From: Asterias amurensis | Taxonomy: Eukaryota; Echinodermata; Asteroidea; Forcipulatida; Asteriidae | Assembly: GCF_032118995.1 (NCBI RefSeq) | Contig: NC_092661.1 | Coordinates: 64,501 to 128,500, forward strand | Direction of reading: 5' to 3' | DNA: 64,000 nucleotides | Part shown: one piece after another, positions 2,086 through 49,174 of the stretch | How positions within the stretch are numbered: the first letter of the stretch is position 1 | Layout: the number at the start of each line of letters is the position of its first letter | Translations under genes and position numbers: made by a program | The notes under the pieces: model-generated | The model's database searches: none | What the model saw: the letters and a program-made list of their open reading frames with translations, nothing else | What the model was told of the DNA's origin: nothing

Positions 2086-2094
2086 TCTGAAAAG

Positions 2095-2645
2095 GCCGCA
2101 TCTTATAGCTTGTCCTGTGACTTTATAATCTCAATCTTGGAAAGTTCTTGAAGTCCGCAAAGGGACACGCGAGTCAAAAATTACTAAGTGTTTTTGTCAA
2201 AAAATGACTAAGTCCAAACATCGACTATGAGTTCAGCTCAAAAAAATTACTAAGTACAAACAATGGCTAGTTTTTTGGTCGAAAAAAATGACTAAGTCCA
2301 CAATAGAACACCGAAAGTCAATAATTACCAAGTGTTTTTGTCAAAAAAATGACAAAGTCCAAAAAAGACTAAGTACAAACATTGACTATGAGTTTCTGTT
2401 CAAAAAATGGCTAGTTTTTTGGTCGAAAAAATGACTAAGTCCACAATAGAACACCAAAAGTCAATAATTGCCAAGTGTTTTTGTCAAAAAAAGGACTAAG
2501 TACAAACATTGACTATGAGTTTCTGTTCAAAAAATGACTAAGTACAAACAATGGCTAGTTTTTTGGTCAAAAAATGACTAAGTCCACAATGGGACTCCAT
2601 TTTATTGTTATATAAAGTCACAACAAGCTATAAGACGATACCTTT
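2095..2645. mobile_element. MITE-like element with internal minisatellite
   Basis: Matching inverted ends (core CTTATAGCTTG plus GTGACTTTATA) lie at about 2098-2128 and 2608-2636. Between them is a degenerate tandem array built on short AAATGACTAAGTCC-type units with a longer period near 140 bp (for example GACTATGAGTTTCTGTTC recurs). The inverted ends suggest a small non-autonomous DNA transposon whose interior expanded. The 310 bp that follow, up to 2958, hold no gene. Confidence 0.55.
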
Positions 2646-2958
2646 AATAAGGGGCTGTATTCCATTTTGATGTACCTAGCTATATAATCTAATGGTAATT
2701 TGAATTTGACGCCTTGTATAAGAGTCATGTGCAAATTTCTAGTTGATTATATTGTTGGTGTACATTGCTTTGGGATACAGTCTCTTCTGCACCCCTATAG
2801 GGGGTGCACTTGGTTGATCAATATTTTAATAATAGGGGGGGTAGGGCCAAACTTTTTACGGAGTTAATTTCGAACCGTACAACGGCACGAGAAATTTTTT
2901 TGGCTGACTTAGTCTATATAAAAAAGGCGTTTTTTTAGGGATTTTTTTGATTTTTTTT

Positions 2959-5900
2959 AAGCACCACTGAACTGTAGAAGCAGCAGAGTTGTGCAAACGT
3001 GTGTGCCGATCGGTGTGGCCAACTACTATCGAGAAAGTGAAGCGACTAAATGATCTAAGTATTAATGGAAGGAAAGCATTTTATTAAGTTAAATCAAGTT
3101 AATGTTTCATTGATAGTCTGTTTTACCAATGTCCTGCCTTACATGATTGACAAACTAAAAACATTGTTTTTTAAAAGTCTGAAGCCAAAAACAAACTTAA
3201 GATTTTTTTTTTCAAAGTCCAAAACAAAAGTCGGAAAGGATTCTGTTGCCCGTTAAATTGTTTGATGAATCTGTATCAAGTGTACCATCGGACGTCTCCC
3301 CCTGTTCGGGCAAACACGTCGCTAAGTTCTTGGAGTAAAGTTTCAAGTTTGAATTTTGGTTGAAGTGTAAAAGGACCCTTCCACTCCGTCACCGATTGAG
3401 TCCTGTACCATCAGAATAACGAAGACTTCAACCCAGATGATGATGCGCTGATCAGAGAAACAAGATTCCAACATGGCGGCTGAACTTGAAAAATTTTGTG
3501 AATTTTTGTGACAAGCACAAAAAACAGAACAGCATACTCAGGAATGTATTGGTTTCACTTGCATTAGACTACTAAAATTTGTTTTGGATTTGTTAAAACA
3601 TCGCAACATTTTAACAGTGTGTGTGATTACACGTTCAAATGAAGTCAAATTTCAGTCAAAAATTATATAGGTTATACACAAACATCAGATTTGCATCTTC
3701 ATTGCATTGAGTATCATTACAGGAGATATTGTAGATGATATTGGGTTTATGGAGGATAACTAGACTGAGAAAAAAAAAACTCTTAAAAAAAACTAACCTA
3801 TCTCTAAACAAATTCTTAACTCCTAAGTACAACAAAGTTTCAAATCCTACGGAACTACAAATTGCTAATGATGTCCCAATAAAGTATTGAACATCTAGGA
3901 TCAACAACTACTCCTACTGATTAACTTCATGTAAGCCTGCAAACCAACAACTCCATGCTAGTGATTTTTGCACCAATTTTAAATTACAATGTTTTGGCGT
4001 AAAAATGAGTCCGACGTCGATGTTGGAAAATTAAGGTTTTATCAGTGACGATAAGATCCTAAGTACAACAAAGTTTCAAATCCTACGGAACTACAAATTG
4101 CTAATGATGTCCCAATAAAGTATTGAACATCTAGGATCAACAACTACTCCTACTGATTAACTTCATGTAAATCTGCAAACCAACCACTGCATACTAATGA
4201 TTTCGTACCAATCATAAACTACAATGTTTTTGCATAAAAATTAGTCTGACGTCGATGTCGGAAAATTAAGGTTTTATCAGTGACGATAAGATCGCTGATA
4301 ACTTGGTGTATTTTCCATCTAGAAAGACACCTGTAATTCTGCAAACAGTGCATGACTAAAGTAACAAAGTGAAGTCTTATTTAGATTACCTATTCCTGCT
4401 GTGTCTTTTTGGCATAATATTCATAACAAAATCAATCTAACAAGCAAATTGAGGAATAACTAATTTAGTTATTTGTTTAATAATTCTACACTAATACTAG
4501 ACTAGTGTTTATGCTTCCTATAACTACCTAGCCATGTGACAAATTACTATGTTTGTTCCGAGGTTTAACTGAATAAGTCTACACTAATACTGCTAATACG
4601 CTAATAAACACCTAGTTTGATCCATTGTACACTTCGCTGTTGTACATGTTGAGACGTTCTCATGTTAACCATAAAAGAATTAAAATTTCTGATGGACATA
4701 GCACAAACTTTGTCTCGTCTCAAAGAGATCTTGAAAATAAAATCAAATACAATTGTTGTACTGACAAAAAACTAGTAGGTTGCATTTGTTCCCAACAGTT
4801 CTACGGGTTACATATCTTAAACTTGCCAACTCTTTTTAGAACCTGTCAAAATATTAATGACCAAGTGTCTTTGTTACTTTAACAGCCTAAATAACTAGAG
4901 AAACAAGATTCAAACATTGTGGCTGAACAAATTTTGTGAGTGTTTGTAAACCGCCTGAGTGTCGTCACCATGTTCAGCTGGAAAAGGGTTGACCAGTTGT
5001 AAAAACTGCTCACAATTATCAATAATTAATACCCTGAAGGATTTAAAACACCTACTGCAGCTAAATTACTATGTTTATGAAAAATGTATACAAATCATGC
5101 ACACCACAGTGGCAGTATTTGTTAAAAAAGCAATGTCTATTGGTCAACATCATTTGTAAATCATTTCTTCAACTGATTGTCGTTAACATATCTACTGTAG
5201 AATCTGTCATAAAGCTGACCACTCAAAACCTACAATTTTAACTAAATCTAAAATCTAAACACTTTTCTAACTAACGAAGGAGTGTACATACAACCTACTG
5301 TGGCTGAGAATTTAACCGGTCACAATTACCTAATGCACAACGGCATCTATCTAATCGACGATGTTTCTTCTACAAAGGACCCTGTTAACTTCCTACACAA
5401 TCCCAATGTCATCTTTGATATCTCCTTTTGATACAGTCAAAACTTCTTAACACAAGTGAAACCAATGTAAAAGCCTGAGTACCTGATTGAAATGTGAATA
5501 GCCATGTTCAGAATCTCGTTTCTCCGACCCTCGCACCAACATCTGGGTAGAAGTCTCCGTCATCCGTCAAGTTCAGAGGCTCCCTCAGATCAGAAGAGGA
5601 TGTCCAGTGTAGAGAAGTTGCTCAAAAAGTAGACCCGTTTACACAGGAACAGTATAGAGAGACGGGTACCAACTTAGGATAACAAAATGATCAGGTAAAA
5701 AATGTGCAAAAAAGTGCAATGGTCCTCAGTCCTTGACACTTTTGATACAGGCCCCCAAAGACTTCAACAGGCAACCAAATCCTTTCTTTCTTAGGTTTCG
5801 TTTTTTTGTCGGAGATCGAGAAAGTTGAAATAGTTTGTCAATCATGTAAGATAGGACACAGGTAAGACAGACTACCAGCGCCACATTAACAAGATTTCAC

Positions 5901-6035
5901 TTAATAAAATGCTTACCCAACCATTAACTCTTGGATCATTAGGTCGTCACACTTTCCAGATAGTAGTTAGCCACACCGACCGGCACACACGTTTGCACAA
6001 CTCTGCTGCTTCTACAGTTCAGTGGTGCTTTCTAC
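2959..6035. mobile_element. 3.1 kb element with ~540-bp inverted repeats
   Basis: The ends at 2959-3500 and 5500-6035 are inverted copies of each other. The outer 70 bp are nearly identical (AAGCACCACTGAACTGTAG outward), and similarity continues in patches for about 540 bp, including GCATTTTATTAAGT and CTTACATGATTGACAAACTA. The layout resembles foldback or long-TIR DNA transposons. The middle (3500-5500) has no recognisable transposase; short open frames at 3065-3256 and in the mirrored arm both begin MIDKL and are lysine-rich. Target-site duplications were not clear. The family is unassigned. Confidence 0.65.
3823..4292 (+). repeat. ~230-bp tandem duplication
   Basis: Two direct copies (about 3823-4051 and 4052-4292) lie inside the long-TIR element. 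The first ~110 bp of each copy are identical and the remainder carries scattered substitutions. This indicates a fairly recent duplication, or partial conversion, inside the element's middle. Confidence 0.8.
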
Positions 6036-6302
6036 AGCATTTAATCAATGGTAACCAATTAATTTACAACATAATTTTTCAAATTATAAAAACAGCCAAG
6101 TACAACATTTACAATCCTTGAGATGAAATAAAGTTATCTCTGAAATTAGATTTTTATTTGTATCAGCTGATGCAAAAAAAAATCAATAAAATTTAGAACC
6201 GTTTATTATTACTGTTGCAGCAATGCAAAGAAGAAAAAAACAACGTTTTCAAATGAAGTTTGTGACTGTTTCGTAAAAAATATTGTACTTTTTAATCAAT
6301 TT

Positions 6303-6500
6303 TATTTTGAGTTTGGACAGGTGTGCATCACACTCATCCAAACATGTCATGCCTAAAATGAATAAATTTGGTTAAATTGATGACGTACTCGTATTTCATT
6401 TTGAGTTTGGACAGGTGTGCATCACACTTATCCAAACATGACGTGCCAAAAAGGAATAAATTTAGTTAAAATGATGGCGTACTTGTATGTCATGAAGATG
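6303..6500 (+). repeat. Two ~99-bp direct repeats with internal palindrome
   Basis: The segment starting TTTTGAGTTTGGACAGG occurs twice in tandem. Each copy contains a short inverted repeat, GTTTGGA with TCCAAAC, around a CATCACACT loop. I see no gene function. Confidence 0.7.
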
Positions 6501-6629
6501 GGTCCCAAGAATACAACTTTAGGATGTATTCCTCTTGCATTAATTGTGTTGAGTGCAAGTTGTACTTGGCTTCACAATCATCAAAATATCAATATAGAAC
6601 CAGAGACACTCCCACAATTTGAGTCACAA

Positions 6630-6691
6630 GCAAATTTTACAGAAAGTTTTGTTTTCCTAAACAGGAAAACGAACATTTCTGTAAAATTTGC
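6630..6691. repeat. Near-perfect 29-bp-arm hairpin
   Basis: The arms GCAAATTTTACAGAAA... and its inverse pair over 29 bp with about three mismatches and a 4-nt loop. It may be the core of a small palindromic MITE; a small-RNA precursor is possible but unsupported. The DNA from 6700 to 7198 holds no gene. Confidence 0.7.
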
Positions 6692-7198
6692 TAAGATATT
6701 CCAACTCTGGGGAAAATCTGGAAAAGAAAAGTTTTTAAAGTGAGCAAAGTTTTGAAAGTAGTAGGGGAAAAAAAAATTGGCAGGAGAGTAAAAAAAAAAA
6801 TAAGAATTTAAAATTCTGTATTTTGGGAAGTACAAAGTCGAACGTTCTATATGAACGTTCTATATGAAAAATGTACATATTTTGTACATAAAGTAATGTG
6901 AACTCATTTCGTGGGAATGTCTCGATAAAGTGTTAAGATAATTTATGTAAAATACACAAATATTTTGCAGTTGTGACCCAAATTACCAAAAAGGACAAAT
7001 CTTTTCGCATTGTCGTATTTCCTGTCCCAAAATTAAGTTTTAAGCCAAAATTAAAAATAGCTTCGATCGACAACAATTTATTTTGCGCGTGTGGCCAACA
7101 CAAAGAATGATAAGCGAAATGTTTCACGTAATGATTTGTCTTCTTCTTTTTGTGAAGTTGGATCACAGATGCAGTCAAATGCACAATCATGAATAAAT

Positions 7199-8472
7199 CC
7201 AGGCCTGATACTTCACGGAGGCAACGAAGGCGATAGCCTCGATGCCCCTGGTGCCCTTGAAATGATCCAGTACGGATTTACAATTTCCTCATAGGGTGCG
7301 TTTAACCAAGGAGAAAATGCTCTGGTGCCCTTGCCTTTTCAAAAAAGAAGCATACAGGCCTGTTAGTCTATAGAAACAATTCACAACACATGATTCAAGA
7401 TTTATCATTGTGTTATTGCAACCAATACCCAAGGTGGAAAGGGGGGGCAGAGGTAAAATGGCAAGTGGCCATTTCTGACATACAGCCGCAAAGGTTTACA
7501 GTAACCTTACCCCACAGAGGAAGGGTCAGAGGTCACACGGCAGGTGGATTAATAGAAAGTACCAGTCATTTCCCCCAGGTAGGAAGGGGAAAAGGTCATG
7601 TATGTACATATGAACCTCAACACTTAGTTTGCTGCGACACAATCCCTAGCAGAAAGGGATGAAAGTCATGTGTGATGGAAGTGGTACAACAGTAAGCCAC
7701 TAATGTAAAACGTTACTAAGTTTGCTGTGACCCAATCCCTAGCAGAAAGGGATGAAAGTCACGTGTGATGGTAGTGGTACAACAGTAATCCACTAAACTA
7801 AAAGTTTACTAAGTTTGCTGTGACCCAATCCCTAGCAGAAAGGGATGAAAGTCATGTGTGATGGTAGTGGTACAACAGTAAGCCACTAATGTAAAACGTT
7901 ACTAAGTTTGCTGTGACCCAATCCCTAGCAGAAAGGGATGAAAGTCACGTGTGATGGTAGTGGTACAACAGTAATCCACTAATGTAAAACGTTACTAAGT
8001 TTGCTGTGACCCAATCCCTAGCAGAAAGGGATGAAAGTCATGTGTGATGGTAGTAGTACAACAGTAATCCACTAATGTAAAACGTTACTAAGTTTGCTGT
8101 GACCCAATCCCTAGCAGAAAGGGAAGAAAGTCACGTGTGATGGTAGTGGTACAACAGTAAGCCACTAATGTAAAACGTTACTAAGTTTGCTGTGACCCAA
8201 TCCCTAGCAGAAAGGGATGAAAGTCATGCACCATGGAAGCGGTACAACAGTAAGCCACTGCTAGAGAACACATTGATAGGTTCCTAGTTTGCTATGACAC
8301 AAACCCCTAGCAGAAAAGGACAGCTCAGTCATTTAAACAGGGCAAGTGCACCAAGGTGGTTTTTCTTGGTAAAGGGCACCTCTATGGAATAATTGCAAGA
8401 ACATTTCAAGGGGCATCCAGGCTATGACCAGTGGCAACGTTGCCTCCGTAATGCATCAGGAGTTTCGTAGTA
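7199..8472. mobile_element. MITE with internal 93-bp minisatellite
   Basis: The inverted ends share ACGGAGGCAACG, ATAGCCT, ATGCCCCTGG-like and GGTGCCCTT blocks (7205-7345 against 8335-8465). The interior, about 7420-8300, is a tandem array with a regular 93-bp period: ACTAAGTTTGCTGTGACCC at about 7715, 7808, 7901 and 7994, and onward. Central units are nearly identical and the edge units diverged. A 90-aa open frame at 7390-7662 is a by-product of the array. Confidence 0.7.
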
Positions 8473-8961
8473 ACAGTATCGAGGATGACATTTGTGCAAT
8501 GACCAACTCTCAGGAAAAAGGGAGTTTTAGTCTTGTCATGACCCATAAGTTACAAAGTATGCCATGATCCTAACCAGAGCTAGAAGGCTTTTATCATAAA
8601 AGATGTGCACTCAAGTTTCTTGTTCGTTCTTTCAATCGATCAACCCACCCCAGGGGTTAGGGGAGGATCGATCAATAACAACAATTGATGAGGGTAAACA
8701 GTTCAATTTCAGATACTAATTTTTCGAAACAAGCTATAAAGCATGAGTTATCGCAAATTAATGTAAGCAACACTGACAGTTTAAAAATACCTTTACCACA
8801 GTTCGGCCATTTTGTCTGGTTCCCGTGTACTGATCAAAACCCGCTAGAAACGCTCAAAGTTTAACAAAAAGGAACCAGACTTAATTTCATTGTCAAGCCT
8901 CATTTTGTTTCTTGAGACAATCCTGATGGCACTGTCAGTGATAAAGGATCCTTATCTTATT
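8473..8961. other. Spacer, no gene seen
   Basis: Unique-looking DNA with one palindromic patch at about 8633-8684 (CGATCAACC... with ...GGATCGATC). I see no coding or splice evidence. Confidence 0.45.
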
Positions 8962-11900
8962 TAAGTACCCATACTGGGATGGATGCTCGGCCTCCTCATC
9001 AGTAACACATCTCTCTGGCATGAGGTGGTGGTCGTCGTCGTCGGTGGTGATTTCATCTCCTTATTCCAGTGAGCTCTTGCCTCGAGTTCCTCTCAGTGTA
9101 GACCAATCTGAAGATGTTGATTCTCTTCAGGAGTATTCAATGTCTTGATGTCTGTAAATAAAAAAATAAATAAATAAAAAATTACTCTTACATAAAAAAT
9201 GAACCTTTGACCCTAACCATCTTGGGGTCGATTTCACAAATGGTTAGAAAGATGAAATAAAACGGTGAAAGTTTCAGCGAAATAGGTTAATTGGTTCTAC
9301 TTGCTGAGAAAACAGAAAAAGCAAACCCTTTCACAGAAGCCGAGGTAAAGGATTCGATACATCAACAAATTATGTTTGCTTTTTCCCCAAACATTATAAA
9401 AAACATTGGCCAAGGGTTTCCATACGGACATATTGCTCCTCTGTTTTCACAGGTAAAATATAAAACCTCTGACATAAAAGGAACCTATTTGAATATAAAA
9501 AATATTTGGAGGGGTTTACGTTATTTTTCAAAACTTAAATGTCAACTTTCAATTTGAAGTGGTGCAATTTTCAATCAAACACAGTTAAAAAATTGGCCAG
9601 GGGTTTCCTTACGGGTGGCGAACTCTTTGTCACTGAAATTTTGCCCTTCAGTTTTCAGAGTTAAAAATTAAAAACCAAAAAGTGTGGAGTTTGTTTTTCA
9701 AAACTTATAAATCACCTTATATGAAGTGGCGCATTTTTCAATGAATAAACACAGTCAAAAAATCGGCCTCCTCATCAGTAAGACATCTCTGTGGCATCAG
9801 GTCGTCATCGTTGTCGTCGCCGCCGGTGGTGATTTCATCTCCTTGTTCCAGTGAGCTCTTGTCTTGAGCCTTCTAAGTGTAGACCGATCCGAAGATGTCG
9901 ATTCTCTTCAGGAGTATTCAATCTCTTGATGTCTGTAAATAAAAAAATAAATAAATAAAAAATTACTCTTACATAAAAAATGAACCTTTGACCCTAACCA
10001 TCTTGGGGTCGATTTCACAAATGGTTAGAAAGATGAAATAAAACGGTGAAAGTTTCAGCGAAATAGGTTAATTGGTTCTACTTGCTGAGAAAACAGAAAA
10101 AGCAAACCCTTTCACAGAAGCCGAGGTAAAGGATTCGATACATCAACAAATTATGTTTGCTTTTTCCCCAAACATTATAAAAAACATTGGCCAAGGGTTT
10201 CCATACGGACATGAACCCTTTGTCACTGATTTTTGCTCCTCTGTTTTCACAGGTAAAATATAAAACCTCTGACATAAAAGGAACCTATTTGAATATAAAA
10301 AATATTTGGAGGGGTTTACGTTATTTTTCAAAACTTAAATGTCAACTTTCAATTTGAAGTGGTGCAATTTTCAATCAAACACAGTTAAAAAATTGGCCAG
10401 GGGTTTCCTTACGGGTGGCGAACTCTTTGTCACTGAAATTTTGCCCTTCAGTTTTCAGAGTTAAAAATTAAAAACCAAAAAGTGTGGAGTTTGTTTTTCA
10501 AAACTTATAAATCACCTTATATGAAGTGGCGCATTTTTCAATGAATAAACACAGTCAAAAAATCGGCCTCCTCATCAGTAAGACATCTCTGTGGCATCAG
10601 GTCGTCATCGTTGTCGTCGCCGCCGGTGGTGATTTCATCTCCTTGTTCCAGTGAGCTCTTGTCTTGAGCCTTCTAAGTGTAGACCGATCCGAAGATGTCG
10701 ATTCTCTTCAGGAGTACTCAATCTCTTGATGCCTGTAAATATAAAAAATAGATAAAAAAATTACTTTTACATAAAAAATGAACCCACGACCCTCACCATC
10801 CCGGGGTCGATTTCACAAATGGTTAGAAAGATGAAATAAAACAGTGAAAGTTTCGGCAAAATAGATAATGGGTTCTATTTGCTTAGAAAACAGAAAGAAG
10901 CAAACCCTGTCGCAGTAGCCGAGGTATAGAATTCGATACATCAACAAATTATGTTTGCTTTTTCCCCAAACGTTTAAAAAAACATTGGCCAAGGGTTTCC
11001 ATACGGACACGAACCCTTTTTCACTGATTTTTGCTCCTCTGTTTTCACAGGTAAAATATAAAACCTCTGAAATAAAAGGAACCTATTTGTATATCAAAAT
11101 ATTTGGAAGGGTTTACGTTATTTTTCAAAACTTAAATGTCAACTTTCAATTTGAAGTGGCACAATTTTCAATCAAACACAAGTAAAAAATCGGCCAGGGG
11201 TTTCCTTACGGGTGGCGAACCCTTTGTCACTGAATTTTTGCTCTTCTGTTTTTAGAGTTAAAAATATAAAACCAAATAGTTGGGGGGCCGGTTTTCAAAA
11301 CTTATAAATCACCTTATATGAAGTGGCGCATTTTTCAATGAATAAACACAGACAAAAAATCGGCCTCCTCATCAGTAAGACATCTCTGTGGCATCAGGTC
11401 GTCATCGTTGTCATCGTCGCCGATGGTGATTTCATCTCCTTGTTCCAGTGAGCTCTTGTCTTGAGACTTCTAAGTATAGACCGATCCGAAGATGTCGATT
11501 CTCTTCAACAGTATTCAATCTCTTGATGTCTGTAAATAAAAAAATAAATAAATAAAAAATTACTCTTACATAAAAAATGAACCTTTGACCCTAACCATCT
11601 TGGGGTCGATTTCACAAATGGTTAGAAAAATGAAATAAAACAGTGAAAGTTTCAGCAAAATAGGTTAATTGGTTCTACTTGCTGAGAAAACAGAAAGAAG
11701 CAAAACCCTGTCGCAGTAGCGATGAATCCATCCGAGGTACATCAACAAACTATGTATGCTTTTTTCCCCAAACATGTAAAAATAATTGGCCAGGGATTTC
11801 CTTACAGACTGTCACTAATATTTTCTCTCTGTTTTCACGGGTAAAATATAAAACCTCTGAAATCAAAGAAACCAATTTGTATATCAAAATATTTGGAGGG

Positions 11901-14900
11901 GTTTACGTTATTTTTCAAAACTTAAATGTCAACTTTCAACTTGAAGTGGTCCAATTTTCAATCAAACACAGTTAAAAAATCGGCCAGGGGTTTCCTTACG
12001 GGTGGCGAACCCTTTGTTACTGAATTTTTGCTCCTCTGTTTTTATAGTTAAAAATATAAAAACAAATAGTTGGGGGGCTTGTTTTTCAAAACTTATAAAT
12101 CACCTTATATGAAGTGGCGCATTTTTCAATGAATAAACATAGTCAAAAAATCGGCCTCCTCATCAGTAAGACATCTCTGTGGTATCAGGTCGTCATCGAT
12201 GTCGCCGCTGCCGGTGGTGATTTCATCTCCTTGTTCCAGTGGGATCTTGTCTTAAGACTTCTAAGTGTAGACCGATCCGAAGATGTCGATTCTCTTCAGG
12301 AGTACTCAATCTCTTGATGCCTGTAAATATAAAAAATAGATAAAAAAATTATTTTTACATAAAAAATTAACCTTTGACCCTAACCATCCTGGGGTCGATT
12401 TCACACATGGTTAGAAAGATGAAATAAAACAGTGAAAGTTTCAGCAAAATAGGTTAATTGGTTCTACTTGCTGAGAAAACAGAAAGAAACAAACCCTGTC
12501 GCAGTTGTGGAGGTATAGAATTCAATACATCAACAAATTTTGTTTGCTTTTTCCCCAAACGTTTAAAAAAAACATTGGCCAAGGGTTTCCATACGGACAC
12601 AAACCCTTTGTCACTGATTTTTGCTCCTGTTTTCACAAGTAAAATATAAAACCTCTGAAATAAAAGGAACTTATTTGTATATCAAAATATTTGGAAGGGT
12701 TTACGTTATTTTTCAAAACTTAAATGTCAACTTTTAATTTGAAGTTTTGCAATTTTCAATCAAACACATTTAAAAAAATCGGCCAGGGGTTTCCTTACGG
12801 GTGGCGAACCCTTTGTCACTGAATTTTTGCTCTTCTGTTTTTAGAGTTAAAAATATAAAACCAAATAGTTGGGGGGCTTGTTTTTCAAAACTTATAAATC
12901 ACCTTATATGAAGTGGCGCATTTTTCAATGAATAAACATAGTCAAAAAATCGGCCTCCTCATCAGTAAGACATCTCTGTGGTATCAGGTCGTCATCGATG
13001 TCGCCGCTGCCGGTGGTGATTTCATCTCCTTGTTCCAGTGGGCTCTTGTCTTAAGACTTCTAAGTGTAGACCGATCCGAAGATGTCGATTCTCTTCAGGA
13101 GTATTCAATCTCTTGATGCCTGTAAACATAAAAAATAGATAAAAAAATAACTTTTACTTAAAATATGAACCTTTGACCCTAACCATCCTGGGGTCGATTT
13201 CACACATGGTTAGAAAAATGAAATAAAACAATGAAAGTTTCAGCAAAATAGGTTAATTGGTTCTACTTGCTGAGAAAACAGAAAGAAGCAAAACCCTGTC
13301 ACAGTAGCGATGAATCCATCCGAGGTACATCAACAAACTATGTATGCTTTTTTCCCCAAACATGTAAAAATAATTGGCCAGGGATTTCCTTACAGACTGT
13401 CACTAATATTTTCTCTCTGTTTTCACGGGTAAAATATAAAACCTCTGAAATCAAAGAAACCAATTTGTATATCAAAATATTTGGAGGGGTTTACGTTATT
13501 TTTCAAAACTTAAATGTCAACTTTCAACTTGAAGTGGTCCAATTTTCAATCAAACACAGTTAAAAAATCGGCCAGGGGTTTCCTTACGGGTGGCGAACCC
13601 TTTGTTACTGTATTTTTGCTCCTCTGTTTTTATAGTTAAAAATATAAAAACAAATAGTTGGGGGGCTTGTTTTTCAAAACTTATAAATCACCTTATATGA
13701 AGTGGCGCATTTTCTAATGAATAAACATAGTCAAAAAATCGGCCTCCTCATCAGTAAGACATCTCTGTGGTATCAGGTCGTCATCGATGTCGCCGCTGCC
13801 GGTGGTGATTTCATCTCCTTGTTCCAGTGGGATCTTGTCTTAAGACTTCTAAGTGTAGACCGATCCGAAGATGTCGATTCTCTTCAGGAGTACTCAATCT
13901 CTTGATGCCTGTAAATATAAAAAATAGATAAAAAAATTACTTTTACATACAAAATTAACCTTTGACCCTAACCATCCTGGGGTCGATTTCACACATGGTT
14001 AGAAAGATGAAATAAAACAGTGAAAGTTTCAGCAAAATAGGTTAATTGGTTCTACTTGCTGAGAAAACAGAAAGAAGCAAACCCTGTCGCAGTTGTGGAG
14101 GTATAGAATTCGATACATCAACAAATTTTGTTTGCTTTTTCCCCAAACGTTTAAAAAAAACATTGGCCAAGGGTTTCCATACGGACACAAACCCTTTGTC
14201 ACTGATTTTTGCTCCTCTGTTTTCACAAGTAAAATATAAAACCTCTGAAATAAAAGGAACTTATTTGTATATCAAAATATTTGGAAGGGTTTACGTTATT
14301 TTTCAAAACTTAAATGTCAACTTTTAATTTGAAGTTTTGCAATTTTCAATCAAACACATTTAAAAAAATCGGCCAGGGGTTTCCTTACGGGTGGCGAACC
14401 CTTTGTCACTGAATTTTTGCTCTTCTGTTTTTAGAGTTAAAAATATAAAACCAAATAGTTGGGGGGCTTGTTTTTCAAAACTTATAAATCACCTTATATG
14501 AAGTGGCGCATTTTTCAATGAATAAACATAGTCAAAAAATCGGCCTCCTCATCAGTAAGACATCTCTGTGGTATCAGGTCGTCATCGATGTCGCCGCTGC
14601 CGGTGGTGATTTCATCTCCTTGTTCCAGTGGGCTCTTGTCTTAAGACTTCTAAGTGTAGACCGATCCGAAGATGTCGATTCTCTTCAGGAGTATTCAATC
14701 TCTTGATGCCTGTAAACATAAAAAATAGATAAAAAAATAACTTTTACTTAAAATATGAACCTTTGACCCTAACCATCCTGGGGTCGATTTCACACATGGT
14801 TAGAAAAATGAAATAAAACAATGAAAGTTTCAGCAAAATAGGTTAATTGGTTCTACTTGCTGAGAAAACAGAAAGAAGCAAAACCCTGTCACAGTAGCGA

Positions 14901-17700
14901 TGAATCCATCCGAGGTACATCAACAAACTATGTATGCTTTTTTCCCCAAACATGTAAAAATAATTGGCCAGGGATTTCCTTACAGACTGTCACTAATATT
15001 TTCTCTCTGTTTTCACGGGTAAAATATAAAACCTCTGAAATCAAAGAAACCAATTTGTATATCAAAATATTTGGAGGGGTTTACGTTATTTTTCAAAACT
15101 TAAATGTCAACTTTCAACTTGAAGTGGTCCAATTTTCAATAAAACACAGTTAAAAAATCGGCCAGGGGTTTCCTTACGGGTGGCGAACCCTTTGTTACTG
15201 AATTTTTGCTCCTCTGTTTTTATAGTTAAAAATATAAAAACAAATAGTTGGGGGGCTTGTTTATCAAAACTTATAAATCACCTTATATGAAGTGGCGCAT
15301 TTTCTAATGAATAAACATAGTCAAAAAATCGGCCTCCTCATCAGTAAGACATCTCTGTGGTATCAGGTCGTCATCGATGTCGCCGCTGCCGGTGGTGATT
15401 TCATCTCCTTGTTCCAGTGGGATCTTGTCTTAAGACTTCTAAGTGTAGACCGATCCGAAGATGTCGATTCTTTTCAGGAGTGCTCAATCTCTTGATGCCT
15501 GTAAATATAAAAAATAGATAAAAAAATTACTTTTACATAAAAAATTAACCTTTGACCCTAACCATCCTGGGGTCGATTTCACACATGGTTAGAAAGATGA
15601 AATAAAACAGTGAAAGTTTCAGCAAAATAGGTTAATTGGTTCTACTTGCTGAGAAAACAGAAAGAAGCAAACCCTGTCGCAGTTGTGGAGGTATAGAATT
15701 CGATACATCAACAAATTTTGTTTGCTTTTTCCCAAAACGTTTAAAAAAAACATTGGCCAAGGGTTTCCATACGGACACAAACCCTTTGTCACTGATTTTT
15801 GCTCCTCTGTTTTCACAAGTAAAATATAAAACCTCTGAAATAAAAGGAACTTATTTGTATATCAAAATATTTGGAAGGGTTTACGTTATTTTTCAAAACT
15901 TAAATGTCAACTTTTAATTTGAAGTTTTGCAATTTTCAATCAAACACATTTAAAAAAATCGGCCAGGGGTTTCCTTACGGGTGGCGAACCCTTTGTCACT
16001 GAATTTTTGCTCTTCTGTTTTTAGAGTTAAAAATATAAAACCAAATAGTTGGGGGGCTTGTTTTTCAAAACTTATAAATCACCTTATATGAAGTGGTGCA
16101 TTTTTCAATGAATAAACATAGTCAAAAAATCGGCCTCCTCATCAGTAAGACATCTCTGTGGTATCAGGTCGTCATCGATGTCGCCGCTGCCGGTGGTGAT
16201 TTCATCTCCTTGTTCCAGTGGGCTCTTGTCTTAAGACTTCTAAGTGTAGACCGATCCGAAGATGTCGATTCTCTTCAGGAGTACTCAATCTCTTGATGCC
16301 TGTAAATATAAAAAATAGATAAAAAAATAACTTTTACTTAAAAAATGAACCTTTGACCCTAACCATCCTGGGGTCGATTTCACACATGGTTAGACAAATG
16401 AAATAAAACAGTGAAAGTTTCAGCAAAATAGGTTAATTGGTTCTACTTGCTGAGAAAACAGAAAGAAGCAAAACCCTGTCACAGTAGCGATGAATCCATC
16501 CGAGGTACATCAACAAACTATGTATGCTTTTTTCCCCAAACATGTAAAAATAATTGGCCAGGGATTTCCTTACAGACTGTCACTAATATTTTCTCTCTGT
16601 TTTCACGGGTAAAATATAAAACCTCTGAAATCAAAGAAACCAATTTGTATATCAAAATATTTGGAGGGGTTTACGTTATTTTTCAAAACTTAAATGTCAA
16701 CTTTCAACTTGAAGTGGTCCAATTTTCAATCAAACACAGTTAAAAAATCGGCCAGGGGTTTCCTTACGGGTGGCGAACCCTTTGTTACTGAATTTTTGCT
16801 CCTCTGTTTTTAGAGTTAAAAATATAAAAACAAATAGTTGGGGGGCTTGTTTTTCAAAACTTACAAATCACCTTATATGAAGTGGCGCATTTTTCAATGA
16901 ATAAACATAGTCAAAAAATCGGCCTCCTCATCAGTAAGACATCTCTGTGGTATCAGGTCGTCATCGATGTCGCCGCTGCCGGTGGTGATTTCATCTCCTT
17001 GTTCCAGTGGGATCTTGTCTTAAGACTTCTAAGTGTAGACCGATCCGAAGATGTCGATTCTCTTCAGGAGTACTCAATCTCTTGATGCCTGTAAATATAA
17101 AAAATAGATAAAAAAATTATTTTTACATAAAAAATTAACCTTTGACCCTAACCATCCTGGGGTCGATTTCACACATGGTTAGAAAGATGAAATAAAACAG
17201 TGAAAGTTTCAGCAAAATAGGTTAATTGGTTCTACTTGCTGAGAAAACAGAAAGAAGCAAACCCTGTCGCAGTTGTGGAGGTACAGAATTCGATACATCA
17301 ACAAATTTTGTTTGCTTTTTCCCAAAACGTTTAAAAAAAACATTGGCCAAGGGTTTCCATACGGACACAAACCCTTTGTTACTGAATTTTTGCTCCTCTG
17401 TTTTTAGAGTTAAAAATATAAGACCAAATATTTTGGGGCTTGTTTTCAAAACTTTTAAATCACCTTATATAAAGTGGTGCATTTTTCAATGAATAAACAC
17501 AGCCAAAAAATTTGCCTCCTCATCAGTAAGACATCTCTCTGGCATCGGGTCGTCGTCGTCGACAGTGGTAATTTCATCTCCTTGTTCCAGTGACCTCTTG
17601 CCTTGAGTTCCTCTCAGTGTAGACTGATCTGAAGATATTGATTCTCTTCAGGAGTACTCAAACTTACTGATGCCTGTAAATAAATCAAAATTACTTTTAC
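8962..17700 (-). repeat. 790-800 bp tandem array, 12 units
   Basis: A long direct array whose units each contain a GC-richer segment (GGCCTCCTCATCAGTAA...), a splice-acceptor-like site, and two or more older ~180-bp sub-repeats marked by GGCCAGGGGTTTCC. Using the acceptor as a landmark, copies lie at 9151, 9932, 10732, 11529, 12320, 13119, 13908, 14709, 15498, 16299, 17088 and 17673. Spacings are 781, 800, 797, 791, 799, 789, 801, 789, 801, 789 and 585. The 789/801 alternation shows a higher-order dimer near 1590 bp in the centre, and edge copies are more diverged, as expected from unequal crossing-over. Plus-strand open frames of 67, 93 and 98 aa repeat with the array and are antisense by-products. 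Confidence 0.9.
9127..17088 (-). pseudogene. POLR1H: Eleven extra copies of the POLR1H terminal exon
   Basis: On the minus strand each array unit has a TTTACAG acceptor followed by a 25-nt coding stub. Joined to the CK-ending zinc-ribbon exon at 18797, the stub would read CKHQEIEYS and stop, close to the C-terminus I recall for human RPA12 (CKFQEKEDS). Ten of the eleven copies carry HQEIEYS or a one-residue variant (D for E at 9151, C for S at 11529, H for Y at 15498), and one more variant lies outside them in the proximal copy at 17673. The copies therefore look like duplicated 3'-terminal exons with intron and 3' UTR. Whether any is spliced is unknown. Confidence 0.6.
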
Positions 17701-17741
17701 ATTAAAAATGGACCTTTAAACCTAACCATCCTGGAGTCGAT

Positions 17742-17845
17742 TTCACAAAGAGTTAGGACTGGTCCTAACTTAGGGCTAGTCCTAAGTTTGACGAGTAACT
17801 TGTCCTAACAACATAAGACCAGTCTTAACTCTTTGTAAAGTTCAC
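17742..17845. mobile_element. Short palindromic MITE
   Basis: The ends CACAAAGAGTTAGGACTGGTC and its inverse (GACCAGTCTTAACTCTTTGT) enclose about 100 bp with internal CCTAAC/CTTAGG repeats. The flanking GTCGATTTCACAAA is also present in each unit of the adjacent array, so the insertion lies in array-related DNA. Confidence 0.6.
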
Positions 17846-17924
17846 CGCAGATCCTTCGCAAGATCCAATTGCATGTTTTGTTGGTTTCTGTTTTGCTGAT
17901 GGATGCACTTGTAACCATATTGGG

Positions 17925-18310
17925 TTTTAATAATAACAATAATAAAAATTATAATAATAAACGTATTTATAACGCGCCTTTTCCAAAAGATACAAAGCGC
18001 CAAATATTTGTACTGCAAGGTGAGTGGGACGAAGATTTTGTAGTTATGAGACCTAATCCTTAGCACACCATGCAGCCAAAGCCAGGAACACCGGGGTGAA
18101 CCCCTTCTCTTTTCCGATAAGTGCATGCACTGCGGTCTTTTACATGAGTTCTTCTACATGGGACCAACGGCTTCTTGTACAATCCGAAGGGCGAAGCAAT
18201 GGTTAAGTGTCTTGCTTAAGAACATAAGTGTCATGGCTGGGGGTTCAAACCCACACTCTGCTGATCAGAAACACCAGAGTTTGAAATTGATGCTCTTTCA
18301 AAAAGTGCTC
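17925..18310 (-). mobile_element. SINE-like element with ATT-rich tail
   Basis: Read on the minus strand it starts near 18310, has an RNA polymerase III B-box-like GGGTTTGAACCC, a block ending CCGTTGGTCCC, and finishes with GGCGCGTTATAAATACG plus an ATT-repeat tail. The same head block is present in plus orientation near 48530. The tail style matches SINEs mobilised by CR1/L2-type LINEs. Short open frames over it are incidental. DNA from 18311 to 18796 shows no gene. Confidence 0.6.
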
Positions 18311-19029
18311 GGCCATGACACTTCTGACATTGATTTACACACATGTCATGTAACGGCGAAGTTCTGCTTTTACCAATCCGCATGTAGCACTGAAATCCTT
18401 CATTCAGTATTGAAATCCGTCATTCAGTGACGCTCGTGGCTCGTCAACAATGTTACCCCTGATCACTGGACCATATATTTCATTCATCAAACCAACACAG
18501 AAACTGCCTGTGCAGCCAAATATGTAGTGATAAATAAATCACAAGACTCATCTCTGCCCTCACAGGTACCTACTAACCCCTGCACAATCTATGAAAACAG
18601 TATGATAAACCTAAAAGGGTCTACAAGCCTAAAGCCCGGTTCATACTTTCTGCGAATGCGAAGCAAATTTTGTTGTAACGAACTCACAATGAATCACTCG
18701 CAACAATTCACAAAGAAAACAGGGCTGTGTCGCCAAAATTCATTTTGCATTTGCAGGAAGTATGAACCAGGCTTAATTAAGTAGTGATTAACTTACTTGC
18801 ATGATGGGCAGAAACAGAAGACGGTTTGTCCTTCATCAGCTGTTTGCCTGGTGTGGAAATGAAGTCCATCATGACCAGTGCTGATCGTGACGGCACTTAG
18901 CACATGGCCTGTCAATCTGAAACCAGACCAGATAGAAAAATTAAGTTAAGAAGTGATGAAAAATAACCCAACATTGACAAAACAAATTTGTGATATAACA
19001 ACCTAAAAGGTAGAGCCATAAGTTTTTTT

Positions 19030-20440
19030 TTTCAATGATTAATGAACAAAATATAGAAAGATGAAATAAAACTGTGAAAGTTTAGCAAAATAGGTCTACT
19101 GGTTCTACTTGCTGAGAAAACAGAGAGCAAAACCCTGTCATAGTAGCGATGAATCCATCCGAAGTAAAGATCTCGATACATCAACAAATTATATTTGCTT
19201 TTTCCCAACATTGAAAAAAAATTGGCCAGGGGTTTCCCTACGGGTGGCAAACCCTTTGTCACTGTTTTTTGCTCCTGTTTTCACAGGTAAAATACAAAAC
19301 CTCTGAAATAAAACGAACCTATACGTACATCAAAATACTTGTGGAGTTGACGTTATTTTTCAAATTAGTTTGAAGTGGCGCAATTTTTAATCAAACACTG
19401 TTAAAAAATTGGCCAGGGGTTTCCTTACGGGTGGCGACCCCTTTGTTCTTCCATTTTCAGAATTAAAAATATAAAACCAAGTATTTTGGGGCACGTTTTC
19501 CAAAGCTTACTAAATGATAAATCACCTAATATGAATGGCCAATTTTCAACTAATAAACACAGTTAAAAAATTGGCCAGGGGTTTCCCTACAGGTGGCAAA
19601 CCCATATCAGTGAATTTTGCTGACATGTCTTAAGAGTTAAATATCAAACCTCTGAAATAAAACAAATTTTTTTCTAACCAAATATTTGGGGGAGGGTAAT
19701 TTTCAAAAAATTACAAAAAAATCGCCTTTTATAATGATTGGCCAGGGGTTTCCCTACGGGTGGCAAACCCATATCACTGAATTTTGCTTACATGTCTTAA
19801 CAGTTAAATATAAAGCCTCTGAAATAAATCTAAACTATTTCTAACCAAATATTTGGGGAGGGTAATTTTCAAAATAACTACAAAAAAATCACCTTTTATA
19901 ATGAAGTGGTACATTTTTCGATTCAACACAGTTAGAAAATTGGTCAGAGGTTTCCCTTTGGGTGGCGAACCCATTGTCACTCAATTTTGCTGTTTTCAGA
20001 GGGATAAAACCCCTGCAACTATGAGGGTTGGTATTTTTCAAAGTTTACCAAATGATAAACTACCTTTTGTGCAAAACAAAGTTTTGCATTTTACTTTCAA
20101 ACAATTTCATAATTGACCAGAGGTTCCCCTACATGTGGCAAACCCTTTAACATGATTTGTTTTTGTTTCTTTCCTGAAATAAAATAAAAAATTTTGGAGG
20201 CAATATTCTTAAAAAGAAACCACATGAAATAAATCACCTAATAAATTTCATCTTTTGTGCATCTTTTTTGTCATAAACCGATTTCAAAAATGGCTTGTGG
20301 GTGGTGAACCCTTTTCACAGATTTTTAACGGTACATCTGTTTTTATTCATTCAGAGTTATATATAAATGATGAAACCTCTAAAAGAAAAAAAGAAAAACA
20401 AAATGTTTTGGAGGTTAGGCCGAGTAAAAAAAAGAAACTT
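19030..20440. repeat. Old diverged ~180-bp repeats in the POLR1H intron
   Basis: Blocks resembling TTGGCCAGGGGTTTCC...GGTGGC...AACCC recur at about 19225, 19415, 19575, 19740, 19945, 20120 and 20290, followed by AAATATAAA-CC-CTGAAATAAA. They are older relatives of the sub-repeats inside the 790-bp array, so the amplified array grew from pre-existing intronic repeats. No gene is seen here apart from the flanking pseudogene exons. Confidence 0.7.
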
Positions 20441-20944
20441 GTTTAGGTCCGGTTTCTCAAAAAAAGGAAGGAGGAGGGGCTTTTTATTTTTTTAATTTTT
20501 TTCAAGATGGCTGCCAAACTTTTTAAAATGTCAAATATCCATTGTTTTTCTACTGTTGAAACACACAAAAATGAAACATTTTGGTCAAGACATTCAGACA
20601 TTAATAATAATAATAAAAATAAAAATGTGCCGAAAAAATTTAAATAAAAAATAAAATAAAAAAGGAGGTGGCCTGTTAAAAGGAAGCGGGCGAAGATGCT
20701 AAACATGTTTCTTTTTTTACTTGGCTTGAACAGCAAGATATAAACCTAAACAATTTGGATATTTCCTAAGATAAAACTCCAGTGTTTCACTCACCAGTGA
20801 TCCTAGGTGTTTCTGGCTGACGAACTCGTGGCTGCTTGTGACGACTTCCAACAGTCTTGCCAGAGTTGAGACGCAGGTATGAATGATAGACCACACCATG
20901 TAATGCAGCTGTAATGAGAAGGAAGGCAATAAGTGACTTTTCAT

Positions 20945-22110
20945 TCATTCAAAAATATGCTGTCTGTGCTAATGATACTTGTTTTCTTTACAAAAAGGCT
21001 AGTTTTAATTAATTTACCTTTATAGCTAGATCTAAGCCTAGTTTTCATTGTTTTGCACCTCAAAATGTTAGAATATTGATAACATTTCCTTTGATAGGGT
21101 AAAACAAATAGTTTTATTGTGTTCTTTGATTAGTTTGTTTTGATTTGATTAAAAACCTAGCTTGCAGGAAAGGAAACATAAATTAATATAAATAAATAAT
21201 ACATAATAAAAAATTTAAAAATATTCGGTCACCACTGATACAAAGAATAAATTCACTGATAATATTAATAAACACAACTTTACACAAGTGTTACATTTTG
21301 TTGAAAATCTGTGCAAGGAATTTAATTTTAACTTTAAAAAAAAAATGTGTTGGTGATCAATTTGTAATCATGAGTGCCCGGCAACAGCGCAGCAGGTTGC
21401 AAAGCACAAACCATGCCTCATCAAGATTTGAAAATCTGTAACAATCATTTCCAAAAAAGACAAGTCAGACAGTCAATGGGGATAACTTTCTGTATGGTGC
21501 CATCACTTTTTTACTCATTTTTACAAATAGGGATATCTCATTGAGGTAAATTACACGAATCAGGTTTTTTTACCACAACTAAAAAAGATTTTGAATTTAT
21601 TTATAAATAATTTTGTTATATAAATTATAATCACATGACCAAACAACGGCGGATGATCCACTAGGATGCACCAGGATGGAATCATTACAAAGGATGATAT
21701 AAAAGGCAATCATTAATCCTACAGACAGGCCTAGTAGAAGTAGGACGATATAAAATGTAAATTACAAAATTAATATTGAAAACTTAGCTTACGGAAAAAT
21801 ACTTTTTTTTAATATTAAAAAAAAAATCATTTTTGTTTTGTTTTAAAACTGTAAAATTATTAGTGACAGGTCATTTACATCATCAGACTAAAAGTATTTC
21901 AGCTGAATTTGCATTAATGTATTTAATGTATTTAAACTTTAAAGTCTGAGTGTTGTTGCGATCATGCATCAGCCTCCTCCCCCACCGCCTCCTTGGCCAC
22001 GTCCCGACCCCGCCTACCCCGTTTATAAATAACGCACAAGTCAAGGGGGCTATCACACACAAATTTACAAGCTCCGGTTTCCACAATAAATATATATATT
22101 CCAAACTTAC
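20945..22110 (-). other. POLR1H-like intron 1 with MITE remnant
   Basis: AT-rich DNA between the first two pseudogene exons. At about 21482-21550 a half copy of the palindromic element seen whole at 35262-35397 is recognisable (GATAACTTTCTGTATGGTGCC...). Open frames at 21883-22153 show no family features apart from overlap with pseudogene exon 1. Confidence 0.45.
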
Positions 22111-22944
22111 TTTTTGCGTCTACTTTGTGAGGCAACTGAGGCAACTCTTGCATTTCTTAACTACCGTTCCTTCTTCAGGAACGGTAAAATGGAGCCAAAT
22201 TGCGGGCAAAATTCTCTCGAAGAGGCAAATGACTCCTCTCCGCCCATGTGTTTGAGAAATTCTGATCCAGCATGCGTTTTTGAATGGGACTTATCAAGTC
22301 TGACTTCACCTATACATTCAGCAGTGAATTTGGTTTAGGGTATCTGACTAGGTACTAAAATATGAATCGCGCCCTCTGTTGTTGGCAGATTGTAGAGTCT
22401 CCCGCGCAAAGTTAATTGAGTTGGAAAATAATAGATCCACCTGCTGGGTGATTTTGATTAATTCTGGTTAAAGATACAAATCGCAACAGAATAAATAGTG
22501 AAATTAAGCAAACATTATCCACAATACGAACCACACCACGTCACTATCTAAGAGAGAAGTCCCTTCCAACTATTAAATAAAAATCGCTTTAAATTTTGTT
22601 TTAAATAATCCCTCGAACATTACACAAGTTTTCACTCACAAAGATGCCAAAAACAAAGAATAATGTTTTAATATGATCTTGTTTAACCAAGATCATGCTT
22701 GAAAAATAGTTTCAGCCCCCTGCTTTTTTTTAATGTTTAAATTGCCTTTTCAAATGCATTTTGTTATTTTTTAACCACAGGGCAATTAAGTTTTAAAACA
22801 AAAACAGGAGGGGCATAAAAAGTTATTTTAGTTAGTTGCTGCTGGGGGATTAGCGAATTGTTTTTGGTTTGAAGTTTCTAATTCTAGATTCACTTGCAGT
22901 TCTTGGATATTTTAACTGGCGTTTGGCGAGAGCAGACAAGTGAA

Positions 22945-29481: not shown

Positions 29482-32400
29482 TTACACCTTGTTATAAATT
29501 TTTACTGATTTGAAGTCTGCCACTGCAAGTTGCTGCCCATTTGGGGTCAATGAGATTCCACCTGGGCAGTACAGACCCCGAACAATGCAGCTGAGAAATC
29601 TACCCTCAATATCATACCGGTGAATGTGACCAGTATTGTAATCCCAATTCAACACTGCAATGTAGATATATGAGCTGTCGCAACATACACCTCTGCAGTA
29701 TTTAACTGGCTGACCATTAATGGTTGGTTTGATGGTGACTAGTGTAGCACCATTGCCATCAACAATGTCCACTCGTTTGTCCCCGCCACTGACTACAACT
29801 CTATCATTGCTGTCAATGGCAATGAAGTAAGGTTCAGTCTTAACTGAAACAGTGTTTATGAGTGACCCATCACTGCAGTTGTGTTTAGTGATAACTGACC
29901 TCTTTACATCACCAACAATGAGGGCATCATTCATAACTGCTACACTGTATAGGTCTACTAATGTCTTGCCCACTTCTAGATGAGGCACTGAGTAGAAATC
30001 AAATCCCTTGGTGCCGTCTGTGTTGTACATCTTGACAGAGTTGCTGCTATCAACAACAACTAGCTGACCCTGGAATGCTGCTACAGCCTGTGGATCTGCA
30101 AAACAAAAAAATGACCAAAATGAATACTAAGTAAAAATGACCCTTCATTATGTATAAACCAGTATGGGGGGTATTCAATTAAACAAATTGTGTTTTAGTC
30201 TAAAATGGAAATTACTCTTGAATAACTGGCTTATATGCAGGCTGAATTGCTCACTTTGAAAGAGAGGCACTGACAAATAACAACCCGATAGAAGCATGCT
30301 ATAGTTTGTCAAGGCAAGGTTTATGAAATATTCAAATCAGTGTCGGGAAAAATGAAAGAGAACAACAGCATAGAATGTAGTCATCTTGTTAAACAAATGT
30401 TGATGGAGTTTTTAGGAAACAAATCCAGTAACATTATACAGAGGGTCATATCAAAATTTGGTTTGATAAAACTTCTCTGATAGCACTGGTTAGAAAGGGC
30501 AATCTCTTCTCATGGACTACACTTTGAAAGTCATCCTGTAACCAATCATGTGTTTAAAGGGACATGTTGCCTTAGTCTATGAAAAGCGTTTGAAAACTGT
30601 TTGTTATGAAATCATATCACTGGTTAGAAAGATGTTTTAGAAGTATAATATGACCATCCACACAAATAAGCTCAAAATTGCACGATTTTCTTTATTCATC
30701 ATGAAGTAACACAGTCGCCCATTTGGGTGGAAACAAATTTTTTACTCATGGCCGACCCTATTAGTTTGATATAGAAGAGTTTGCGGTAACACCATGTAAT
30801 AATCTGTAAATGAGTTGAGGTGGTTCTGAAAGAAACTGTTGGTTTAACTCGACGTTTCGATCAGTATGCTCTGATCGTCTTCTGGAGAATGCTGGACTCT
30901 GATGCTGCATGCTGCTTAAGTACTGGGCAGCGGATTAGCTTGGTGATGCACAAAGGCGGGAAGTTGAACTCGATGATGCGTGGTGAAACCTGCTGTGGAG
31001 CCTTGGGTAGTGTGTGGGGTGTGTGCTCACTGAACTGTGTCAGTAGGAACAAGCACAGGGGATAGTGAGGGTGTGGGGCCTAGGTGACTGAGGGTATAGA
31101 TGACCCAAAGCAGTCTAAAGGTTGGGGGGCCTAGGGGGTGACCGTGGATATAGAAGATCCATTGGTCGGTAGGAGGGGGAGCCAGATGTCGCTGATGTGG
31201 AAGCCGATGTCTTGGGGTACGGTGTCATGCTTGTGGATCTCGATGGCCTCTCTAATGCGTCTCGGGTGCCACGCCTGGATTGGAGCGATGATTTCTGCGG
31301 CTTCCCAGTTCACTCACTGGTCAGTGATGTGGGAATGCTTGACGATGGCGGATTTATCGAAGTCTCCCCTCCTTCCGTGTGCTCGGTGTTCCTTAAGTCT
31401 AGTGGGAAGGTTACGCCCGGTTTCCTCGACATAAACCTTACCACATGGAATGCAATAGACTCCGGCACGGGTGGAGGTGTCCTTCTTGTCCTTGTGCGAT
31501 TGGAGAGAGCCATGGAGTTTCTTCGGAGCGGAGTGATACCTTGATTCCTGCTTGCTTGAAGATGCGTTGGAGGCGATGAGAGGGGGGACCTAGGTATGGT
31601 AAACTAACTGTGGGTGTGTGTGTTTGACCTTGGGTATAGGAGACCCTTTGGTCGGGGGGGACGGGCTTCCTTGTCTTGACTTGCTTGGCGTTGTATCCAT
31701 TCCGCTGTAGAGAAGTGGTGATGCGCTGCAACTCATGCTGGAGGCTGTCCGGATCATAAAAGGTATAAGCTCGTTGAACCAGCGCACGGTTGACTGACGA
31801 CTTGACAGTTGGATGATGGAAAGACCGCTGATGTAGGTTAACGGTCGGTGTGGGTGGGCTTCCTGTAAATGCTGTGGTGGAGGGTGCCGTCTTGATTTCT
31901 TGTGATGAGAACATCCAGAAAGGGCAACTTTCCGGAATGTTCCTGCTCCATTGTGAACTTGATTCATGATTTACTTTACACATGCGTTTCCTCCAGTTGT
32001 TTTCAATTCCAGGGCAAGTACTACGAGCAGACAGCTGGGACCTCCATGGGATCCCCTATATCCCCGGTTCTAGCTGACATATTCATGGAAGAGTTCGAGT
32101 CCTCATCACTCCTCACCGCTGACCTCCGACCCAGCCTGTGGCTCCGCTACGTAGACGACACCTTTGTCGTGTGGCCCCACGGTCAGGACTCTCTCCATGA
32201 ATTTCTACAGTACCTCAACCAGCAACACTCAAGTATCAAGTTCACAATGGAGCAGGAACATTCCGGATCTTCTATATCCACGGTCTCCCCCTAGGCCCCC
32301 CCAACCTTTAGACTGCTTTGGGTCATCTATACCCTCAGTCACCTAGGCCCCACACCCTCACTATCCCCTGTGCTTGTTCCTACTGACACAGTTCAGTGAG

Positions 32401-34165: not shown

Positions 34166-34199
34166 TTTCTAAAAGTTAGAACAAAAGTGAGAGAATTTA

Positions 34200-44205: not shown

Positions 44206-49174
<4,969 letters not shown>

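Follow-up and report, generated by a model that had tools for sequence, protein, structure and literature searches.

POLR1H (also RPA12 or ZNRD1) is an RNA polymerase I subunit with a TFIIS-like C-terminal zinc ribbon. Duplicated (non-processed) pseudogenes can form families that are spread by segmental duplication. The DNA analysed here, a 64,000-nt stretch of the Asterias amurensis genome (the window, C14:64501-128500 in its own assembly), carries a POLR1H locus on the minus strand at 9127-22247. Exon 3-4 peptides of intact relatives of this locus align with RPA12 and the POLR1H genes on contig C15 carry four exons; in the window copy, by contrast, exons 1-3 are all broken and the last exon is present 12 times. 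Like segmental-duplication pseudogenes, the family of the window copy keeps its introns, one close pair of copies shares flanking sequence and the loci are clustered. Unlike them, 26 of 52 POLR1H loci have matches at both unit ends (among the matches listed) and at least 21 have a gene-derived tandem array. One example of transposon-derived satellite DNA is the TIR-220 arrays of the Tetris foldback element (PMC4079207). In both cases longer arrays grew out of tandem repeats inside a dispersed unit; the POLR1H family differs in that its array derives from host exon 4 and introns, and no foldback ends were found at the two loci compared.

It is highly probable that the window locus is a decayed, intron-bearing POLR1H copy with a gene-derived, satellite-like array, and one of about 50 dispersed duplicates. 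If this is right, the family records how the end of a gene becomes a satellite, from the intact gene through duplication, exon loss, growth and homogenisation to dispersal. It also calls for caution in annotation, as false POLR1H models may result when gene callers meet some 50 copies with a multitude of last exons. A literature search found no paper on POLR1H in echinoderms, and the papers listed for ZNRD1 pseudogenes or duplications have titles on other subjects. Among the papers listed on gene-derived satellites, foldback elements, macrosatellites, starfish duplications and star genomes, none was seen to describe the family.

The POLR1H copy in the window

The upstream exons of the window copy are as follows.

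22111-22247, minus strand: exon 1 of the decayed POLR1H (ATG at 22247; end taken from alignment)
20795-20908, minus strand: exon 2, 114 nt against 104 nt in the intact genes (10-nt insertion, frame-shift)
18797-18916, minus strand: exon 3, the C-terminal zinc ribbon (16-nt insertion and 6-nt deletion, frame-shifted)

An earlier note on this DNA had described a decayed POLR1H gene, and indeed exons 1, 2 and 3 are all present and all broken. Exon 1 has a Cys to Phe change at a zinc ligand, a 1-nt deletion, 8 inserted nucleotides and an early stop. The splice donor of exon 3 (GTAAGT) is unbroken. When the exon-3 frame was read past the insertion and joined to the last exon, the peptide matched the Pfam TFIIS zinc ribbon with 28.4 bits (cut-off 21). 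An intact family exon 3 joined to exon 4 was used as the query against protein chains. It matched human RPA12 (7ob9_I) at 3.3e-16, covering residues 83-124, and RPA12 chains in general at 3.3e-16 to 4.5e-10; the other chains were 1qyp (labelled RNA polymerase II, 1.8e-7), RPC10 (5.5e-5), RPB9 (2.6e-4) and TFIIS (1.4e-3). The ribbon is thus of the RPA12 type. The note had staked its reading on a match between the zinc-ribbon exon and RPA12, and through the intact relatives this match exists.

The window copy lacks an intact ORF with both zinc ribbons, which both C15 genes (C15a and C15b) possess. It has kept its introns, its coding is disabled and an intact parent is found elsewhere, as in a duplicated (non-processed) pseudogene. 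It was concluded that the window copy is a dead POLR1H that cannot make RPA12. The Cys to Phe change in exon 1 is common to the six other exon-1 copies seen on C1, C7, C14 and C21 (6/6); therefore much of the family derives from a copy that was already damaged. The change is absent from C13, C19 and C15, and a search for exon 1 at C14_4805k did not find it.

Twelve last exons and the array unit

Twelve minus-strand acceptors of the type ...TTTACAG precede the terminal exons listed below, the higher coordinate on each line being the first exon base.

17649-17673, minus strand: terminal exon copy 1, nearest to the gene; CKHQ followed by a premature stop
17064-17088, minus strand: copy 2, acceptor and frame
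16275-16299, minus strand: copy 3, acceptor and frame
15474-15498, minus strand: copy 4, CKHQEIEHS
14685-14709, minus strand: copy 5, acceptor and frame
13884-13908, minus strand: copy 6, acceptor and frame
13095-13119, minus strand: copy 7, acceptor and frame
12296-12320, minus strand: copy 8, acceptor and frame
11505-11529, minus strand: copy 9, CKHQEIEYC
10708-10732, minus strand: copy 10, acceptor and frame
9908-9932, minus strand: copy 11, acceptor and frame
9127-9151, minus strand: copy 12, CKHQDIEYS; its unit continues into native 3'UTR without the duplication joint
8990-17673, minus strand: the whole array, chimeric units of about 0.8 kb in tandem (exon 4 and 3'UTR, intron-2 piece, intron-3 tail)
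19054-19576, minus strand: intron-2 source of the unit middles (one two-unit stretch mapped)

The first two acceptors are 585 bp apart and the following ones 781-801 bp, with a two-unit periodicity of 1590 bp. Joined to the exon-3 end (...TGC AA), the short last exons (stubs) read CKHQEIEYS in 8/12, a one-residue variant in 3/12 and CKHQ plus stop in 1/12, so that 11 of the 12 frames complete an RPA12-type C-terminus. These counts bear out the claim that the last exon was amplified to 12 copies, with acceptors from 17673 to 9151, and that the copy closest to the gene is the broken one.

The repeated block is not the simple intron-plus-terminal-exon unit that had been proposed; it is a chimera which includes a piece of intron 2 and lacks exon 3. 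Unit positions 1-170 are exon 4 and 3'UTR (about 160 nt of the latter), positions 165-710 correspond to a 545-bp intron-2 piece (window 19576-19054) and positions 708-801 to the intron-3 tail (window 17756-17677), after which the next exon 4 begins. Exon 3 is missing from the whole repeat block in the window. When two units were used as the query, identity was 98-99% in the remaining central stretches of the array and 89-91% in the outer ones, and a chance origin of the array is therefore excluded. Comparison of the sequences places the joint between 3'UTR and intron 2 at a GGCC(G/A)A stretch that is present on both sides. Joints of the type GAGGAGGC(C/A)GATTTTTTG were found in non-last units at loci on C1, C7, C13, C14, C19 and C21. 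The last unit instead continues as GAGGAGGCCGAGCAT..., like C15b, at 7 of 10 family loci (the window, C13, C14_380k, C14_1658k, C14_2227k, C7 and C1); the GAGGAGGCCGAGCAT pattern did not find this run-on at C14_4805k, C21 and C19. Among the window units, native 3'UTR continues past the joint position in the last one alone. With units arranged head to tail and homogenised within the locus, the array is satellite-like.

Intact POLR1H genes on C15

The earlier note had proposed a search for an intact POLR1H elsewhere in the genome, and two were found, both on C15 and each with four exons.

C15:859927-863150: intact POLR1H gene
C15, near 1.592 Mb: the other intact gene, in inverted orientation

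The two genes lie about 0.73 Mb apart. Each encodes 122 aa and has a single last exon ending in CKHQEIEYS. The stubs of the window match these genes of the same genome, and neither of the outcomes named in the note as refuting its reading came about. C15a and C15b differ by 2 aa (seven synonymous and two nonsynonymous codons; dN 0.014, dS 0.091). In the two longest blocks of their alignment, which include introns, they differ by 13.5% and 16%, and for this reason it is unlikely that they represent two haplotypes of a single gene. These two single-last-exon copies are taken to be the working genes. Among the own-genome matches listed, no POLR1H was seen outside the C15 genes and the family of the window copy.

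The dispersed family

The genome searched comprises 491.5 Mb on 23 contigs, a number in keeping with the 22 chromosomes of two published star genomes, and gave at least 60 Zn_ribbon_TFIIS matches. The 60 listed do not include exon 3 of the window copy. Two matches on C17 and one on C20, which we take to be POLR3K and TFIIS, were set aside. The remaining 57, two of which are the C15 genes, were taken as POLR1H-type, part of them having been read as sequence. These ribbon matches, together with one entry for each array or unit-end stretch, were merged at 22 kb into at least 52 loci on 11 contigs, the two C15 genes counted in; secondary pieces were left out, as were matches on C2, C6 and C9 that cover only another repeat. 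The 0.8-kb array is shown by at least 21 family loci. The family exons that were actually read are mostly broken. Outside the window, loci are 81-93% identical to the array query.

The family units span about 14-25 kb, and one of them fills the first part of the window.

1-23479, minus strand: part of the family unit inside the window, from similarity to relatives

The similarity continues 860 bp past window base 1, to C14:63640. Window position 23479 was rejected as a general 5' end, since C15a and C14_1658k match for about 33 bp further. The window copy and C14_380k share flanking sequence beyond the unit, to window 25393. The loci are strongly clustered among the matches listed, with 14 loci within 4.7 of 20.3 Mb on C14 (P 6.5e-8) and 15 within 12.6 of 38 Mb on C1 (P 2e-6); these P values assume independent loci, which local duplication violates.

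Many matches to C15a stop near one place, while the 5' ends vary among loci (C15a positions 3723, 3888 and 4486 among others). At the 3' side, 12 of 12 fetched ends, drawn from 37 3'-end entries in the locus list, pass into a minisatellite in which the palindrome TTCACAAGGCTATAGCCTTGTGAA is abundant; the window and the C15 stretches, which served as a 94-kb control, gave no match to it. The minisatellite stands on both sides of the C13 and C14_2227k loci and, by position, also at the 5' side of three C1 loci. With up to 3 mismatches allowed, the genome contains 942 occurrences of a 43-base form of it, some of them far from the family. The orientation of the flanking blocks (forward/reverse) is 11/1 and 15/0 at the two ends of C14_2227k and 0/6 and 3/11 at those of C13. 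The blocks are thus mainly in the same orientation at both ends of these two loci, and foldback ends were rejected as a candidate. A sharp 3' end at query base 861 was likewise rejected as a transposon end: other copies run on past it, and the sharp stop arises because the window copy adjoins another repeat there, one that is also present on C2, C6 and C9.

We read the 14-25 kb units as having probably spread by recombination or segmental duplication, although the presence of both unit ends at 26/52 loci is more regular than random segmental duplication would suggest. The main rival is transposition: the unit would be a mobile, non-autonomous element into which POLR1H was captured, introns and all. 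The presence of about 50 copies on 10 contigs other than C15, half of the 52 loci having both ends, the common stopping place of many C15a matches and the minisatellite reached by every fetched 3' end (and by the 5' ends noted above) would all fit a mobile element. However, no transposase or other protein domain scored above cut-off in six frames of window 1-8700, the non-POLR1H half of the unit, where the sole weak match was Phage_endo_I (13.5 bits against a cut-off of 29.1). The differing 5' ends, the strong clustering and the repeat-caused stop at query 861 also speak against an element, as do the same-orientation minisatellite blocks and the two ends of the window copy, which on visual inspection bear no resemblance to an inverted pair. 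We regard a mobile element as unlikely. RNA genes and tRNAs are absent from the window part of the unit, the single Rfam match lying outside it. A further idea is that part of a host polymerase gene has turned into a self-spreading composite repeat, whose units, with POLR1H and its internal satellite, would move between minisatellite arrays on different chromosomes, for instance by recombination or extrachromosomal circles, and whose transcripts or small RNAs could act on the C15 genes; family exon 3 matches the intact genes at about 95%. This idea is speculative and we consider it improbable.

Origin of the array

A 14-nt deletion at the stop codon is present in 65/65 family last exons and absent from both C15 genes (67 of 68 matches passed the length filter of this alignment, two of them being the C15 genes). 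It is through this loss that the stubs gain their TGA (or TAA) stop. In a tree of array units, drawn with no support values, the first units of six loci group together and so do the last units of six loci; at C7 and C14_4805k the first units fall into a group of their own. Inner units mostly group by locus or between near loci (the window and C14_380k). Because the joint and the 14-nt deletion are shared and the units group in this way, a single origin of the array before the loci dispersed is most likely, followed by satellite-like homogenisation inside each locus. The amplification described in the earlier note is not local: arrays with this joint and this deletion recur on several chromosomes, and the array is very likely older than the window copy.

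On C1, C13 and C19, ribbons recur at intervals of 1.2-2.2 kb, which indicates repeats that have kept exon 3. At C1_12823k two ribbons are separated by 1473 bp, with the same joint between them. The joint and these repeats suggest the order in which exons 3 and 4 were duplicated, exon 3 was lost and the array grew. The ancestor copy would have undergone one tandem duplication at the short GGCC(G/A)A match; exon 3 would then have been lost from the repeated part before the array grew, and the finished array would have been dispersed to other loci and homogenised within each. Copying may have proceeded by segmental duplication and recombination, with the palindromic minisatellites perhaps helping as joining points, and unequal crossing-over might have changed the number of exon copies. 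Probably none of this was selected for the protein.

Selection on the stubs and on exon 3

The coding part of the stubs (22 nt) shows 1.48 steps per site, a value that 60 of 173 overlapping flank windows of equal length do not exceed. The data give no support for purifying selection on the stubs, as their coding is no better conserved than the adjoining sequence. The acceptor CAG shows 0.67 steps per site, less than its neighbours, over three sites only.

Exon 3 was compared in 26 rows (24 family copies and the two genes), of which 10 come from loci picked by protein-profile match, a choice that favours intact exons and bears on both sides of the argument. There were 52 nonsynonymous, 28 synonymous and 5 stop changes. 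The silent share is 33% where the neutral expectation is 24.5% (70% nonsynonymous, 5% stop), a slight excess (p 0.05). Such counts do not support strong selection on exon 3, and its drift is near-neutral. Among family copies (12 rows), divergence is 0.064 in exon 3 (0.066 at third positions) and 0.098 in the adjoining intron 3, with exon 3 the less diverged in 50 of 64 pairs. A larger contrast (0.060 and 0.161) was discarded, being inflated by two C19 rows with non-homologous flanks. Divergence of the upstream introns from C15a was unusable since C15a differs there. The low exon-3 divergence has base composition or conversion from the C15 genes as candidate causes, and weak past or partial constraint may also have contributed. 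Between C14_4805k and C15a, exon 3 (L029:6238-6347 in the former) has 1 difference in 110 sites and intron 3 has 32 in 186, and the two share the exon-3 donor GTAAGTCAAT; gene conversion is a possible explanation.

These results bear on whether the array works as a string of alternative last exons, exon 3 being spliced to any of the 12 acceptors to give alternative 3' ends. The intact GTAAGT donor, the AG at the end of all 12 acceptors, the 11 complete frames and the acceptor CAG that changes less than its neighbours speak for such use, and the 11 good stubs, an exon 3 less diverged than intron 3 and the slight silent excess are points against a pure relic. However, the upstream exons 1-3 are frame-shifted with one zinc ligand lost, the stub coding evolves like its surroundings and the native 3'UTR follows only the last unit. 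AATAAA or ATTAAA is found in only 3/12 units, a weak point because the C15 genes also show none in about 1.5 kb. We therefore hold functional alternative last exons to be very improbable. From its sequence, we read the array as a relic and not as a working string of alternative 3' ends. The earlier note had offered both possibilities: the unconserved stub coding, the near-neutral exon 3 and the broken upstream gene favour its relic option, and the DNA lends no support to its suggestion that the array drives alternative polyadenylation. Its remark that distant copies keep their coding is correct for 11/12 frames, but this is better explained by youth and homogenisation than by use. An assembly artefact is a barely credible source of the array or of the duplicated loci, for although the central units are 98-99% identical and assemblers can err in copy number, the other loci are 81-93% identical to the query, vary in unit number and small indels, and have first-unit and last-unit relationships in common.

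Other features of the window and genome

Beyond the family unit, a histone 3' UTR stem-loop is found at window 32557-32602 on the plus strand (Rfam RF00032, 34.5 bits, cut-off 34). Beside it lie a reverse-transcriptase fragment (31896-32294) and an inverted repeat (30572-31160 / 32810-32265). TRIM-type RING/B-box and NHL proteins are encoded at 32891-34168 (minus strand), 37472-39331 (plus strand) and 29482-30126 (minus strand), and retroelement integrase pieces (H2C2, rve, p58 C-terminal domain) at 56689-58292 (plus strand). Tandem repeats occupy 45417-47730 (15 bp), 51169-52106 (118 bp), 7622-8259 (93 bp) and 63452-64000 (59 bp).

Elsewhere in the genome, the search with the C21 flank was dominated by a short repeat. 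A repeat of about 300 bp at L041:1259-1557, with copies 97-99% identical on many contigs, is possibly a young SINE. The two ribbons on C17, presumably POLR3K from their FYKCC..CGHRWRD end, are inverted relative to each other (C17:9699526, minus strand, and C17:10306786, plus strand) and about 0.6 Mb apart. Each has an RPB9-type ribbon 4-8 kb away, a layout like that of the POLR1H pair on C15.
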